Virus record (IMG/VR): IMGVR_UViG_3300028287_000860
Span: 1 to 23,219 of that record
DNA length: 23,219 bases
DNA from: a virus
Direction: 5' to 3' (one strand)
Both the position numbers and the translations under genes were made by a program. The notes under the pieces are model-generated. The model was not told the origin of the DNA. It did not search any database and saw only the letters and a program-made list of their open reading frames with translations. Of this stretch, positions 4,398 to 13,769 are shown piece by piece (positions within the stretch are counted from its first letter, which is position 1; each line of letters opens with the position of its first letter).

Positions 4398-5275
4398 AAT
4401 CATTAATTACAGGTGGATGTGGATTTATTGGTTCCAATCTTGCAAATCGTTTAGTTGAAATTGGGCATGAGGTTATTGTTTTGGATAAGGTGCATCCTTC
4501 CAATCCAAATCCAAAAGTAATATATTATCTTCAAGATCTTTCAGAAAATTATGCAAAATATATTCATTTATTTGAAAGTGTTAATAATGTTTTTCATATG
4601 GCATCGGAAGTTTCAATTCCGTATTGCGTAGAAAAACCCAATGAAAGTATGGCAAATAATGTTTTGTCTACTATGAATGTACTTGAGTGCGCAAGAGTTC
4701 ATAATATTAATAAGTTTATATTCTCATCTACTTCTGCAATATATGGAAATTCTATGTTTAATCCCAACTATGAGACAAATCAGGTACAATGTCTGAATAC
4801 TTATTCTATTTCTAAGTATTCGGGTGAGCAATTGTGTAAGATGTACTATGATTTGTATGGACTTAAGACAGTAATCTTTAGGTATTTTAATGTTTATGGT
4901 GAAGGTCAGCATAAGACGGGTCAATATGCTCCCGTAATGTCTATCTTTAAAAGGCAGAAAGATAATAAAGAACCACTAACAGTTATTGATCCGGGATATC
5001 AGACCAGAGACTTTGTGTATGTTTCTGATGTGGTTTATGCAAATATCCTTGCATCACAAAAAAATATTGATGTTTATGGTGAAGTATTTAATATTGGTAC
5101 TGGAACTAGAACTGAAATTCAAGAGATTGCTGATTTGATGTCAGATTATCAAATTAAAATACCTGAAAGATCTGGTGAAGTCATGCATTCAACGGCAAAT
5201 ATTGACAAAGTAAAGGAATGGTTTGGTTGGAATTATAGTATAAAAGTTCTAGATTGGATTAAGAAAAATGGATAA
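4394..5275 (+). CDS. NAD-dependent nucleotide-sugar epimerase/dehydratase (GalE-like extended SDR)
   Basis: Extended short-chain dehydrogenase that interconverts nucleotide-activated sugars, most likely a UDP-hexose 4-epimerase type. The dinucleotide-binding GGCGFIG is at residues 7-13, an aspartate (VLDKV) follows the second strand, and FSSTSAIYG provides the catalytic Ser/Thr. The Y137-S-I-S-K141 pair gives YxxxK. Downstream, FRYFNVYGEGQ and RDFVYVSDVV are typical of GalE/WbpP-like enzymes. At 293 residues it is somewhat shorter than the usual 310-340, mainly at the C-terminus. It probably supplies the donor sugar for the surrounding transferases. The exact substrate cannot be fixed by reading. 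Confidence 0.85.
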   Translation: MKSLITGGCGFIGSNLANRLVEIGHEVIVLDKVHPSNPNPKVIYYLQDLSENYAKYIHLFESVNNVFHMASEVSIPYCVEKPNESMANNVLSTMNVLECARVHNINKFIFSSTSAIYGNSMFNPNYETNQVQCLNTYSISKYSGEQLCKMYYDLYGLKTVIFRYFNVYGEGQHKTGQYAPVMSIFKRQKDNKEPLTVIDPGYQTRDFVYVSDVVYANILASQKNIDVYGEVFNIGTGTRTEIQEIADLMSDYQIKIPERSGEVMHSTANIDKVKEWFGWNYSIKVLDWIKKNG

Positions 5276-7908: not shown

Positions 7909-8988
7909 ATGGCAACAACTCTTTCAAGGCAACAATCTACATCTCCATGGCAGAATTTCTGTGAGTGGGTGACATCAACTAACAACCGTTTGTATGTTGG
8001 TTGGTTCGGTGTACTGATGATTCCAACACTGTTGGCAGCAACTACTTGCTTCATCGTTGCATTCATCGCAGCACCACCCGTCGATATTGACGGTATTCGT
8101 GAACCCGTAGCAGGTTCACTCATGTATGGCAACAACATCATTTCTGGTGCAGTTGTCCCAAGTTCAAACGCAATCGGTCTCCACTTCTACCCAATCTGGG
8201 AAGCAGCATCACTCGATGAGTGGTTGTACAACGGTGGTCCTTTCCAACTGGTAGTCTTTCACTTCCTTATCGGCATCTATGCTTATATGGGACGTGAATG
8301 GGAACTCTCATATCGTTTAGGTATGCGTCCATGGATCTGTGTGGCATATTCTGCTCCAGTCGCTGCTGCGAGTGCAGTATTCCTCGTCTATCCTTTCGGT
8401 CAAGGTTCTTTCTCCGATGCTATGCCTCTTGGTATCTCTGGTACTTTTAACTACATGCTTGTATTCCAGGCAGAACACAATATCCTTATGCACCCGTTCC
8501 ACATGCTCGGTGTTGCTGGGGTATTCGGTGGATCTCTTTTCTCTGCTATGCACGGAAGTCTGGTTACATCTTCACTCGTCCGTGAGACGACTGAAACTGA
8601 GTCACAGAACTATGGTTATAAGTTCGGTCAAGAAGAAGAGACCTATAACATCGTCGCAGCCCATGGTTACTTCGGTCGTTTGATCTTCCAATATGCTTCG
8701 TTCAACAACTCACGTTCCTTGCACTTCTTCCTTGCTGCATGGCCCGTTGTTGGTATCTGGTTCACCGCACTTGGTGTATCCACGATGGCATTCAATCTCA
8801 ACGGGTTTAACTTTAATCAGTCCATCCTTGATGGTCAGGGCCGCGTCCTGAACACATGGGCAGACGTATTGAACCGTGCCGGTCTTGGTTTAGAAGTGAT
8901 ACATGAAAGGAACGCCCATAACTTTCCTTTGGATCTTGCTGCTGCTGAGTCAACTCCTGTTGCACTTACTGCTCCTTCTATCGGTTGA
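7909..8988 (+). CDS. psbA: Photosystem II reaction-centre protein D1
   Basis: D1 core subunit of photosystem II, which turns over rapidly in light; phage copies keep water oxidation and energy supply running during infection. All 359 residues align to host D1 numbering. Visible are Y161 (tyrosine Z), H190, H198 (P680 ligand), H215 and H272 (iron ligands), and S264. The manganese-cluster ligands D170, E189, H332, E333, D342 and A344 are all present, and the C-terminal tail after A344 would be removed by processing. Residue 130 is Glu (GREWEL), the form associated with high-light D1 in cyanobacteria. The gene has no intron. It has its own promoters, structured leader and terminator, and is visibly richer in G and C than the glycan cassette. 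Confidence 0.99.
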
Positions 8989-8997
8989 GTTAGTTAG

Positions 8998-9045
8998 AAA
9001 AACTGAATAACAAGAAAGAGACCTTCACGGGTCTCTTTTTTTATG
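8998..9045 (+). repeat. Direct repeat, left copy (psbA terminator block)
   Basis: This 48-base block starts AAAAACTGAATAACAAG and contains the psbA terminator. It matches 9792-9837 over its whole length except for two extra loop bases (AC). The two copies flank the endonuclease gene and its small partner. Confidence 0.9.
9015..9042 (+). terminator. psbA terminator
   Basis: AAAGAGACC (9015-9023) pairs with GGTCTCTTT (9030-9038) around TTCACG and runs into seven T (9036-9042). It is part of a 48-base block repeated after the endonuclease cassette. Confidence 0.9.
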
Positions 9046-9050
9046 ACTAC

Positions 9051-9088
9051 TTGACTAAATAGTTAAACTTATGGCATAATAAGTTTAA
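9051..9088 (+). promoter_or_regulatory. Promoter with overlapping palindrome before the endonuclease gene
   Basis: TTGACT (9051-9056) and CATAAT (9075-9080), 18 bases apart, form a sigma70-type promoter. CTAAATA (9055-9061) is a late-like motif. A perfect 10-bp inverted repeat, TTAAACTTAT (9063-9072) and ATAAGTTTAA (9079-9088), spans the -10 and the expected start, and could be an operator or RNA hairpin. Confidence 0.6.
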
Positions 9089-9105
9089 TGTTAAATAATC
9101 AAACT

Positions 9106-9555
9106 ATGAAAACATGTAAGGTCTGTGGTGAAGCAAAACCACTTTCGGATTATTATCCAACACAATTTAAGAGTAAGGAGTTTCCTGATAAAACCTATTA
9201 TCATGGAAAGTGTAAATCTTGTTTCATTAAGGCAAAACAAAAGGATTATACTCCCGAAAAGGGTAGGGATAAAAACTTGAGACGGTGTTATGGTATCTCA
9301 CTTAATGAGTATAATGAAATGTTGGAAAACCAAAATAACAAATGTATGACTTGTGGAACTACTGAACCAGGAGGTAGAAAATCTGGTAGAGGTGGAGGTG
9401 CTGATGTATTTGTTGTAGACCACGACCATGAAACGGGTAAAGTCAGGGGACTTCTTTGCTATAGTTGCAATAGAACACTGGGTCTGTTGGGAGACAACAC
9501 CCAAACTCTCCAAAGTATGATAGAATATCTACAAGAACATTGTGTTATCTTATGA
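9106..9555 (+). CDS. Endonuclease VII-like HNH protein, probable free-standing homing endonuclease
   Basis: HNH/endonuclease VII-type nuclease (ββα-Me fold). Paired cysteines C4/C7, C36/C39 and C80/C83 suggest zinc sites (numbered from 9106). The catalytic VVDHDHETGKVRGLLCYSCN is at residues 103-122 and is the hallmark of recombination endonuclease VII relatives. The start is uncertain: ATG 9088 adds MLNNQT but falls on the predicted sigma70 transcription start, so 9106 is preferred. Its place directly after psbA matches F-CphI, the free-standing homing endonuclease reported next to psbA in cyanophage S-PM2, which attacks intronless psbA. It overlaps the next gene by ATGA. Homing is inferred from position and family. 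Confidence 0.85.
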   Translation: MKTCKVCGEAKPLSDYYPTQFKSKEFPDKTYYHGKCKSCFIKAKQKDYTPEKGRDKNLRRCYGISLNEYNEMLENQNNKCMTCGTTEPGGRKSGRGGGADVFVVDHDHETGKVRGLLCYSCNRTLGLLGDNTQTLQSMIEYLQEHCVIL

Positions 9556-9785
9556 AATGGTTATTGAAATCTGTTGAATTTGATTGGGAATTAAATAAAT
9601 GTATTAATCCTCCCGATTTATCAAAGCAACTCAAAATTGTAAATGAAGTTACTTCTGTACCTTGGGTTGGTAAGTCTCCTGATGATGTTGCAGATAAAAT
9701 TTATGCTCAATATGGATATTGTTTAAAGGCAATTGAATGTATTCCAATAAAATCAAATAAATTAAAGGGATTTGGGAAAGATTGA
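9552..9785 (+). CDS. Hypothetical protein coupled to the endonuclease, 77 aa
   Basis: The ATG at 9552 overlaps the endonuclease stop (ATGA); an in-frame ATG at 9540 lies deeper in the upstream gene and is less likely. The protein, beginning MKWLLKSVEFDWELNKCINP, is small and mixed helical, with W, C and K-rich parts and an alkaline C-terminus (IKSNKLKGFGKD). I do not recognise a family. It is carried between the duplicated terminators together with the nuclease, so it probably moves with it. Confidence 0.6.
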   Translation: MKWLLKSVEFDWELNKCINPPDLSKQLKIVNEVTSVPWVGKSPDDVADKIYAQYGYCLKAIECIPIKSNKLKGFGKD

Positions 9786-9791
9786 TAAAGT

Positions 9792-9837
9792 AAAAACTGA
9801 ATAACAAGAAAGAGACCTTCGGGTCTCTTTTTTTATG
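9792..9837 (+). repeat. Direct repeat, right copy (duplicated psbA terminator block)
   Basis: Identical to 8998-9045 apart from loss of two loop bases. It holds a working terminator: AAAGAGACC (9809-9817) and GGTCTCTTT (9822-9830), followed by T to 9834. Confidence 0.9.
9809..9834 (+). terminator. Terminator of the endonuclease cassette
   Basis: Stem AAAGAGACC / GGTCTCTTT with the short loop TTCG and a seven-T tract. TTCG is a tetraloop of the stable UNCG class, whereas the psbA copy has a six-base loop. Confidence 0.85.
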
Positions 9838-9882
9838 TGTAAGTATAAATTCGTAGGCATAAATTTTTGTTTCCTAATTGTA

Positions 9883-9911
9883 TTGATTTACACACAAATC
9901 ATCTATATAGT
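9883..9911 (+). promoter_or_regulatory. Candidate sigma70-type promoter
   Basis: TTGATT at 9883-9888, a 17-base spacer and TATAGT at 9906-9911. It would give a leader of about 70 bases before the GTG at 9988. Confidence 0.5.
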
Positions 9912-9987
9912 GGTAGAATTGGAGAGTTGAGCAAAGTGTAACTAAGTCGATTTTTATTATGAGTAAATTTTATTCGTGGAGGTTATT

Positions 9988-10173
9988 GTGCATAATCTAA
10001 TATCCTATAATCAATTAGCAGGATGGAAAGAAAGTTTTAAAAGGTTCGGTAAAACTCTAGACAGAAGTATAGAGGAATCGGATCTAATCAATGATTATTA
10101 TAATTGTCTAATTGAGTGTGATGATAATCAGTCATCATGCAAACGTATATGTCGGGAAGTTCTTAGGGAATGA
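9988..10173 (+). CDS. Small hypothetical protein, 61 aa, GTG start
   Basis: The frame has GTG codons at 9976 and 9988. A strong ribosome-binding site GGAGG at 9978-9982 sits five bases before GTG 9988 and overlaps the earlier GTG, so 9988 is the likely start. The protein, beginning MHNLISYNQLAGWKESFKRF, continues with an acidic helical segment and a Cys-rich end (CLIECDDNQSSCKRICREVL), with three or four cysteines that could bind metal or form disulfides. No known family is recognised. It is flanked by its own promoter and terminator, making a one-gene cassette. Confidence 0.65.
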   Translation: MHNLISYNQLAGWKESFKRFGKTLDRSIEESDLINDYYNCLIECDDNQSSCKRICREVLRE

Positions 10174-10205
10174 TGCATATGGTCTTATTCAAATATTAAT
10201 ATATT

Positions 10206-10231
10206 AAGGACTCCTCAAGAGTCCTTTTTTT
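10206..10231 (+). terminator. Rho-independent terminator
   Basis: AAGGACTC (10206-10213) pairs with GAGTCCTT (10219-10226) around CTCAA, followed by T to 10231. The arms are identical to those of the terminator at 11147-11171. Confidence 0.9.
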
Positions 10232-10242
10232 GTGGAAAGCAC

Positions 10243-10311: not shown

Positions 10312-11121
10312 ATGAAAACCAAAGTATTTTTGTCTACTCTTGCAATCCTCGGAACTCTAACCACTCCTGTTTTTGCATCTGGTCAAACCATTAAAAATGG
10401 CAACGATGTAGAAAATACTAATCGCAATAAAGTAGAAAATACCAATCGTAACTCCATTGATAATAGTAGCGATAATACCAATCGAAATCGCAATAAGAAC
10501 GACAACTTTAATAGCAACACTGCTGACAACAGCAATCGTAATCGTAATAGTGCTGATAATACCAACAGCAATAGTCAAGGTCAACTTCAAGGTCAAGGAC
10601 AGTTGCAGGGTCAAGGTCAACTCCAAGGTCAAGCACAACAAGCTACCTCTGACCAAGGACAAGATCAATCTCAACAGGCTTCCTCCAGTCAGTCTCAAAC
10701 CTCTGCTAATAACGGAAACTCTCAAGGAACATTTGTTGATGCTTCAAACCGTAGCACCAACACCTATGTTGAACTTCCGGAAGCAGCAGTAGCACCTCTT
10801 CCTGTTGGGAATGCTGGTAGTGGTGGTATTGGTGATATTGTAGTTCCTTTGCCTGGTTTCCAAGTTGGTGCTTTCTATTCCAATGATGACAATGCTGGAT
10901 ATGGGAGTGGTACAAGTCGTAATGCTACTGGTGTAACTGCTGGTTTCAGTGTTCCTCTTGGTGCTGGTGAGTTTCGTGAAGCAGCACGTAATGAGGTTCG
11001 TCGTCGTGCAGCATCTCAACGGATTCAGTTAATCAAAGAAGCAGTATGGCTTCAGCAAAATGATATTGAAGTCACTGCTGAAGCATTCCCCGAACATTAT
11101 GCTGCAATGGGTCTTGATTGA
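10312..11121 (+). CDS. Exported Asn/Gln-rich repeat protein, 269 aa
   Basis: A classical signal peptide (MKTKVFLSTLAILGTLTTPV followed by FA, cleavage near residue 23) sends the protein out of the cytoplasm. Residues 24-88 are an Asn-rich repeat region (NTNRN, NRNRN, DNSN units). Residues 89-106 are three QGQLQG hexads, and 107-145 continue Gln/Ser-rich. From about 146 there is a folded-looking domain with PLPVGNAGSGG, VGAFYSNDDNAG and GVTAGFSVPLG, resembling beta strands of outer-membrane or curli-like proteins, then a helical, Arg-rich C-terminus. It has a perfect promoter and terminators on both sides. Function unknown; an amyloid-like, envelope or virion-surface role is a guess. Confidence 0.85.
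   Translation: MKTKVFLSTLAILGTLTTPVFASGQTIKNGNDVENTNRNKVENTNRNSIDNSSDNTNRNRNKNDNFNSNTADNSNRNRNSADNTNSNSQGQLQGQGQLQGQGQLQGQAQQATSDQGQDQSQQASSSQSQTSANNGNSQGTFVDASNRSTNTYVELPEAAVAPLPVGNAGSGGIGDIVVPLPGFQVGAFYSNDDNAGYGSGTSRNATGVTAGFSVPLGAGEFREAARNEVRRRAASQRIQLIKEAVWLQQNDIEVTAEAFPEHYAAMGLD
10576..10629 (+). repeat. Three QGQLQG-coding 18-bp units
   Basis: Three consecutive units encode QGQLQG (residues 89-94, 95-100, 101-106). Their codons differ (CAA/CAG, CTT/TTG/CTC), so the peptide has been kept while the DNA drifted. Confidence 0.85.
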
Positions 11122-11146
11122 TATAAAAACTAAATATTAATGTAAT

Positions 11147-11171
11147 AAGGACTCCGGATGAGTCCTTTTTT
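11147..11171 (+). terminator. Rho-independent terminator
   Basis: AAGGACTC (11147-11154) and GAGTCCTT (11160-11167) pair around CGGAT, with T to 11171. A CTAAATA motif lies just upstream at 11130-11136. Confidence 0.9.
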
Positions 11172-11182
11172 AATGGTCGAAT

Positions 11183-13623: not shown

Positions 13624-13632
13624 CTTTTAAAC

Positions 13633-13699
13633 TTAACACATCAAAGACAATGTGTTAAAGAAATCTCATATCTTTAACACATCAAAGACAACGTGTTAA
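13633..13699 (+). promoter_or_regulatory. Repeat with three competing hairpins downstream of psbD
   Basis: Two near-identical 26-base copies (13633-13658 and 13674-13699) each form a hairpin: TTAACACA/TGTGTTAA, and TTAACAC/GTGTTAA. The right arm of the first plus the left arm of the second form a stronger alternative: TGTGTTAAAGA (13651-13661) with TCTTTAACACA (13671-13681), a perfect 11-bp stem with a 9-base loop. None is followed by a T-tract. Confidence 0.75.
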
Positions 13700-13715
13700 G
13701 TGTTACACCACCACC

Positions 13716-13744
13716 TAGACCCAACAAATAATCTATGGTATAAT
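13716..13744 (+). promoter_or_regulatory. purC: purC promoter overlapping a terminator
   Basis: TAGACC (4 of 6 of TTGACA) at 13716-13721, a 17-base spacer, and an extended -10, TGG followed by TATAAT (13736-13744). The expected start near 13751 lies inside the left arm of the following hairpin. Confidence 0.6.
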
Positions 13745-13746
13745 AC

Positions 13747-13769
13747 GAGGGTTAGAAACCCTCTTTTTT
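13747..13769 (+). terminator. Terminator abutting the purC start codon
   Basis: GAGGGTT (13747-13753) and AACCCTC (13757-13763) form a 7-bp stem with a 3-base loop, followed by six T directly before ATG 13770. It would stop psbD transcripts, while transcripts begun at 13751 lack most of the left arm. Confidence 0.75.

Follow-up and report, generated by a model that had tools for sequence, protein, structure and literature searches.

The cassette that lies directly behind psbA in this viral DNA is probably a psbA-linked, free-standing homing endonuclease element of the F-CphI kind, founded by a cut in psbA and one-sided repair and later changed by exchange of its endonuclease. The DNA analyzed, called the window here, is a virus fragment of 23,219 nt that is close to Synechococcus phage S-SKS1: where the psbA-to-talC region is matched, which is half of it, the two are 94% identical. 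Table 1 lists the features of the locus; loci on other viral contigs are given by L numbers.

Table 1. Features of the psbA locus and of the cassettes behind it in the window
Feature	Position	Strand	Basis
psbA (photosystem II D1), intronless	7909..8988	+	ORF list; 0-nt gap at intron site
First terminator copy, incoming side (proposed), loop TTCACG	8998..9045	+	Repeat and folding
Putative cassette promoter, sigma-70-like, TTGACT - 18 nt - CATAAT	9051..9080	+	Read and aligned by eye
EndoVII-type (DHHRN) endonuclease, 149 aa	9106..9555	+	Pfam PF02945 (E=2e-23); PHROG endonuclease VII; motif residues
Endonuclease 3′ block in common with the S-SKS1 enzyme, 64 nt at 95%	9476..9539	+	5′ part not shared
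77-aa cargo ORF	9552..9785	+	Overlaps the endonuclease stop by ATGA
Second terminator copy, recipient's native copy, loop TTCG	9792..9837	+	Identical to cassette-free L040 over the repeat
Right flank, conserved, also in empty alleles	9838..9978	+	Allele comparison
phrog_665 gene, conserved right neighbor, used for finding alleles	9976..10173	+	PHROG match
Second duplicated terminator, first copy, variant limited to occupied alleles	10191..10235	+	Repeat and allele comparison
269-aa ORF, low-complexity and secreted-type, carried by the second cassette	10312..11121	+	ORF list, Pfam search
Second duplicated terminator, second copy, type of the single copy in empty alleles	11132..11176	+	Repeat and allele comparison

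Results

The cassette lies between two copies of the psbA terminator

An earlier note on this DNA had described a 48-base block that recurs, with a two-base difference, after the endonuclease gene and the small ORF coupled to it. Our comparison confirms this: the second block is 46 nt long, and the sole difference is one 2-nt indel in the hairpin loop. The two blocks fold as intrinsic terminators (-18.4 and -15.6 kcal/mol), and none of 200 shuffles folded equally well. Exact direct repeats in the surrounding 5 kb reach 29 nt, against a maximum of 17 nt in 300 Markov-1 resamples.

We then considered whether the block is a common hairpin found elsewhere in the genome, which the earlier note had named as a result that would speak against its reading. 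This is ruled out for S-SKS1 (complete, 208 kb), which has exactly one copy of the block's 21-nt core with 3 mismatches allowed and in which no two of the terminator-like sites in ~199 of the 208 kb are alike. The copy count for the window's own phage covers the 23,219-nt fragment, which holds two similar terminator pairs, each flanking a cassette. DNA matches to the block region in Brochothrix, S-RIM2 and elsewhere turned out to be merely short hairpin or flank matches. Among Rfam families in the region only PhotoRC-II, upstream of psbA, passes its threshold; MicX and mir-5879 fall far below theirs. A 28-nt intergenic sequence in the right flank (9843-9870), GTATAAAYTCGTAGGCATAAATTTTTGT, is present in 113 viral-contig stretches behind many different genes, and no Rfam family matches it above threshold.

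The endonuclease resembles F-CphI but belongs to another clade

F-CphI of S-PM2 is a DHHRN homing endonuclease of a collaborative homing system; it cuts intronless psbA and targets the psbA intron site (PMC6083498). The window enzyme has the complete catalytic motif of this class, CX2C-DHxH-R-CX2C-N, with C80, C83, D105, H106, H108, R114, C118, C121 and N122 invariant in the alignment with F-CphI (41% identity), and its profile matches the structures of Hpy99I and T4 EndoVII. The gene is free-standing beside psbA, and in relatives it is present, absent or replaced by other endonucleases. An additional in-frame ATG lies at 9088. The sigma-70-like promoter sequence is kept, in a by-eye alignment, in the same-clade loci L107, L109 and L111.

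The two enzymes are both EndoVII-type, free-standing and directly behind psbA, and each has a small cargo ORF behind it. Enzymes of the F-CphI type linked to psbA, which the earlier note had drawn on, are indeed the right comparison, but the window enzyme is not a member of the F-CphI clade. In a 104-row tree, which has few columns, an unsettled bootstrap and unreliable deep branches, it belongs to a separate supported clade (99/99, 14 rows), of which 13 members lie directly behind psbA and one lies at a contig edge. The clades also differ in their introns: an insertion of 202-233 nt is found at the psbA intron site in 10 of the 10 F-CphI-clade loci with data and in 1 of 13 loci of the window clade, psbA being intronless in the other 12 (Fisher p ~1e-5, kinship ignored). 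Rfam confirmed a group I intron in S-PM2, L029 and L117. The window psbA is intronless, as the earlier note had said: the S-PM2 intron-insertion site maps to 8910|8911 and shows no gap. The group I intron that shields the neighboring psbA in collaborative homing is thus absent here.

The 77-aa ORF matches phrog_2460 (6e-5), a PHROG without assigned function, and searching for it gave no informative relative.

The second terminator matches cassette-free alleles

We collected alleles by scanning viral contigs for the terminator, for the gene downstream of it and for the flank. Empty alleles (L025/L030, L005/L036, L021/L041, L016/L040, L039 and L056) have a single terminator, as had been expected of cassette-free relatives, and a psbA-to-phrog_665 gap of 190-199 nt; in occupied alleles this gap is 592 to ~1500 nt. 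The left boundary of the occupied alleles is always directly behind a psbA terminator, and the right boundary varies. It is a full terminator in the window and in L013/L028, half a terminator in S-SKS1 and a terminator stem in L121 and L177; in L126 it starts from AAAAACTGAATAA, and at the right boundary of L027, L009 and L034 the native terminator is absent. The second terminator is therefore not universal. The idea that termination is kept on both sides fits the window, where by our model psbA and the cassette would each keep a terminator, and fails for the several occupied alleles that do not have a second one.

Beginning at the psbA stop codon, the right copy and its flank align with cassette-free L040 at 93% over 218 nt, and the loop of this copy is the same as in L039/L040. 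Just ahead of the repeat, the right copy has bases of the TGATA type, as most empty alleles do, and the left copy has bases of the TGAGTTAGTTAG type; these few bases point to a native right copy, and a stretch so short is only suggestive. Because the right copy and its flank match cassette-free alleles, we take this copy to be the recipient's original terminator and the left copy to go with the incoming psbA end. The alignment to L040 begins at 9782, and the TGA of the 77-aa ORF could be the stop codon of the displaced psbA end. At the psbA target site, CAT or CAC separates four occupied marine alleles with EndoVII-type genes and intronless psbA from the group's empty alleles; we dropped it as an immunity mark, since the split fails across all clades.

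Comparison with the sibling locus L013/L028 shows that the cassette is a mosaic. Against L028, psbA is 94% and the first terminator 97% identical, the promoter and the 5′ part of the endonuclease gene only 52%; the endonuclease 3′ end, the 77-aa ORF and the second terminator are at 99% against L013/L028 (359/362 nt). For the promoter and endonuclease 5′ part, the match is instead to psbA-linked loci, among them L111 (81%). The sibling thus has the same right half as the window and a different, S-SKS1-type endonuclease. Since the 52% block sits between blocks of 97% and 99%, the window endonuclease and its promoter appear to have replaced an S-SKS1-type one inside an existing cassette, and the 3′ block in common with the S-SKS1 enzyme looks like the recombination boundary.

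The earlier note had supposed that the terminator was duplicated within one genome, by repair, as this endonuclease inserted. Near-identical copies on both sides of the gene and the one copy in empty alleles would be expected from such an event, but the second copy is also present in L013/L028 beside a different endonuclease, so that it is older here than the endonuclease of the window. The affinity of the right copy and its flank to cassette-free alleles speaks against the proposal as well, and so do the two psbA ends of different lineages found in relatives (below). We consider internal duplication improbable.

Displaced psbA 3′ ends in relatives start shortly after the intron site

In relatives, 3′ stubs of psbA are found behind the cargo (L137, L020, L134/L261, L125/L255 and L029/L022), and L281/L282/L284 have a psbA tail to which the 3′ end of an endonuclease is directly fused. 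We took the S-PM2 intron site, CGT|AATGCACACAAC, as the zero point for stub starts. Six stubs begin at about +2, +6, +6, +20, +22 and +24 from it; the search misses stubs of fewer than ~17 codons, so that the true rightward spread is larger. None of the 126 locus-strands with a psbA tail has a stub that starts upstream of the site, and longer stubs were detectable. Zeng and colleagues reportedly described, in 2009, targeting of the psbA intron site by F-CphI. The stubs in relatives point to the same site as a cut site.

The tails allowed us to ask where each end comes from. The 57-nt in-gene tail of L029 is identical to those of L006, L009, L011 and L270, at least three of which have the same endonuclease type, and its stub is identical to S-SKS1 at 56 of 57 positions; tail and stub share 49 of 57 positions, with 8 differences. 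L125 has an in-gene tail identical (57/57) to that of the endonuclease carrier L126 and a stub unlike the L126 tail. The stub of L020 and the psbA tail of L007/L027 are identical, and in L137 neither tail has a clear affinity by the 57-nt comparison. A native 3′ end downstream, with affinity to the recipient, is seen in L029 and partly in L125 and L020. These comparisons show that, judged by their tails, the in-gene psbA end and the displaced stub of relatives derive from different lineages. In the window itself, only the terminator and a few bases around TGA are left of the displaced end.

Could the arrangement in the window be an assembly artifact, in which the 46-nt repeat led a short-read assembler to bridge two alleles? 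A short repeat in a metagenomic fragment makes this conceivable, but the independent contig L013/L028 has both copies and the same right half, two-terminator or stub structures of an equivalent kind occur on other contigs, and the isolate S-SKS1 carries a cassette in the same slot. We regard an artifact as highly implausible.

Several further features of these junctions were seen. The fusion in L281/L282/L284 (~4501-4860; 1-362 in L284) joins the 3′ end of an F-CphI-type endonuclease in frame to the psbA 3′ end, and on the contig of L023/L281 it lies ~5 kb downstream of psbA. The last cargo ORF stops a few bases from the displaced psbA end or terminator in L020, L029, L121, L125, L126, L137 and L177, and at stub junctions it sometimes borrows the TGA of the displaced end as its stop.

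A second cassette has the same polarity and no endonuclease

The second terminator pair (Table 1), absent from the earlier note, flanks a 269-aa ORF, and no endonuclease lies inside this cassette. Relatives without the ORF have one terminator copy; the window, L007/L027, L031/L168 and L032/L171 have two. The polarity is that of the first cassette: the variant copy on the left is one that occupied alleles share, and on the right stands a copy of the native type. Since this polarity arises here without an endonuclease, terminator recombination alone can make such pairs, and the window's right junction as it now stands may also be its product.

T4-type phages are reported, by Arbiol in 2010 and Comeau in 2014, to have mobile promoter/stem-loop cassettes known as PeSL. 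By analogy, the terminators behind psbA could be a recombination substrate, with PeSL-like promoter and terminator repeats shuffling the genes between them and the endonuclease as one passenger. The two systems are alike in that terminator hairpins and promoters bound variable genes. The second cassette fits this explanation, and so does the similar AAAAACTRAATA at which the right copy begins in the window, in L126 and in the second cassette. It leaves unexplained, however, why psbA coding stubs begin at the intron site and why the psbA end within the gene moves along with the cassette. S-SKS1, moreover, has no family of similar terminators: judged on that genome, the hairpin is not part of a promoter and stem-loop unit dispersed genome-wide. 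The involvement of psbA stubs is a further difference from PeSL. We hold this explanation to be unlikely, although clearly ahead of internal duplication.

Other endonucleases occupy the slot behind psbA

The slot behind psbA appears, from its occupants, to attract endonucleases. It holds an HNH gene in S-SKS1 and a GIY-YIG-like gene (motif by eye; no Pfam match) in L034 and L038; the slot gene of L177 is probably LAGLIDADG-like, by eye. In L034 (4787-5410) and L038, the GIY-YIG-like gene seems to have overwritten an EndoVII-type gene, whose last ~50 nt remain behind it. The cargo behind the psbA-linked EndoVII-type gene of L128/L168 (3392-5411) includes, by eye, a DNA-methyltransferase-like ORF and another large ORF, and that of L137 includes a DNA methylase (PF01555). 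In S-SKS1 (NC_020851), an endonuclease gene lies directly behind psbD (22787-23326); it is absent at the corresponding place in the window (13624-13769), and psbD may have a similar slot.

Discussion

We infer cleavage, the cleavage site, one-sided repair and present-day mobility from the arrangements described above. In the founding events, an endonuclease would have cut the psbA of a recipient at or near the intron-insertion site. On the left side, repair by homologous recombination would have imported from the donor its psbA 3′ end along with the terminator and the endonuclease; on the right side, the end of the cargo would have been joined illegitimately, with no long homology, to the recipient end left by the cut or by resection. 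The psbA 3′ stub and terminator of the recipient would then survive downstream of the cargo, and in the window the stub would have been trimmed to about the stop codon and the terminator. At a later step, a related endonuclease with its own promoter would have been swapped in by recombination, the exchange being bounded to the left by the T-run of the terminator and to the right by the endonuclease 3′ end, which is conserved.

Some points weigh against this model, which we still consider the probable one. The window psbA does not have the intron that protects S-PM2. The second cassette has the same terminator polarity without an endonuclease, and terminators may suffice for the right junction of the window. 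L020 has a stub at the intron site, yet no recognizable endonuclease. For the window's own stub, the reading rests on the terminator and a few bases around TGA.

A similar arrangement is known from fungal mitochondria, where mobile ORFs (Allomyces atp6; Glomus atp6, atp9, cox2 and nad3) duplicate the C terminus of their target, the native C terminus lying downstream of the element (PMC3630166). Judged by the phage relatives, the element here likewise brings its own 3′ end of the target gene, the native end lies downstream of the endonuclease, and the two ends differ in affinity. The differences are that the host of the element here is a phage, that the enzyme is EndoVII-type rather than LAGLIDADG or GIY-YIG, and that the displaced end carries a transcription terminator. 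HEG-islands at boundaries of genetic exchange in phages show polar homology and have no discrete boundaries (PMC10448857). As in those islands, endonuclease genes with cargo adjoin conserved genes, but here one boundary is fixed behind psbA and the other is variable, and in some alleles the displaced target end can be recognized. In the literature searched, with subscription papers mostly outside it, we found no report of displaced psbA ends or terminators beside phage endonucleases, and priority is not established.

We give about an even chance to a broader proposal: that cyanophage psbA has been captured repeatedly by endonuclease cassettes that replace its 3′ end through one-sided homologous repair and illegitimate joining at the cut, leaving the old end and terminator downstream. 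Such cassettes would be a phage counterpart of the fungal mitochondrial mobile ORFs and also a loading dock at which new genes arrive and psbA ends are exchanged, whether or not the intron is present.

Displaced target ends, starting as they do at the presumed cut site, would be a footprint from which the targets and past activity of free-standing phage endonucleases can be read from sequence alone. The psbA-linked EndoVII-type enzymes comprise one intron-associated clade and others that are mostly intronless; for the enzymes of an intronless clade, how their own psbA escapes cutting becomes a testable question. The model also offers a concrete route by which a virus-borne photosynthesis gene could keep swapping its 3′ end and gaining neighbors. 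Since the cassettes would bring their own psbA end and push the original end and terminator downstream, the slot behind psbA would be a hotspot for gene turnover.
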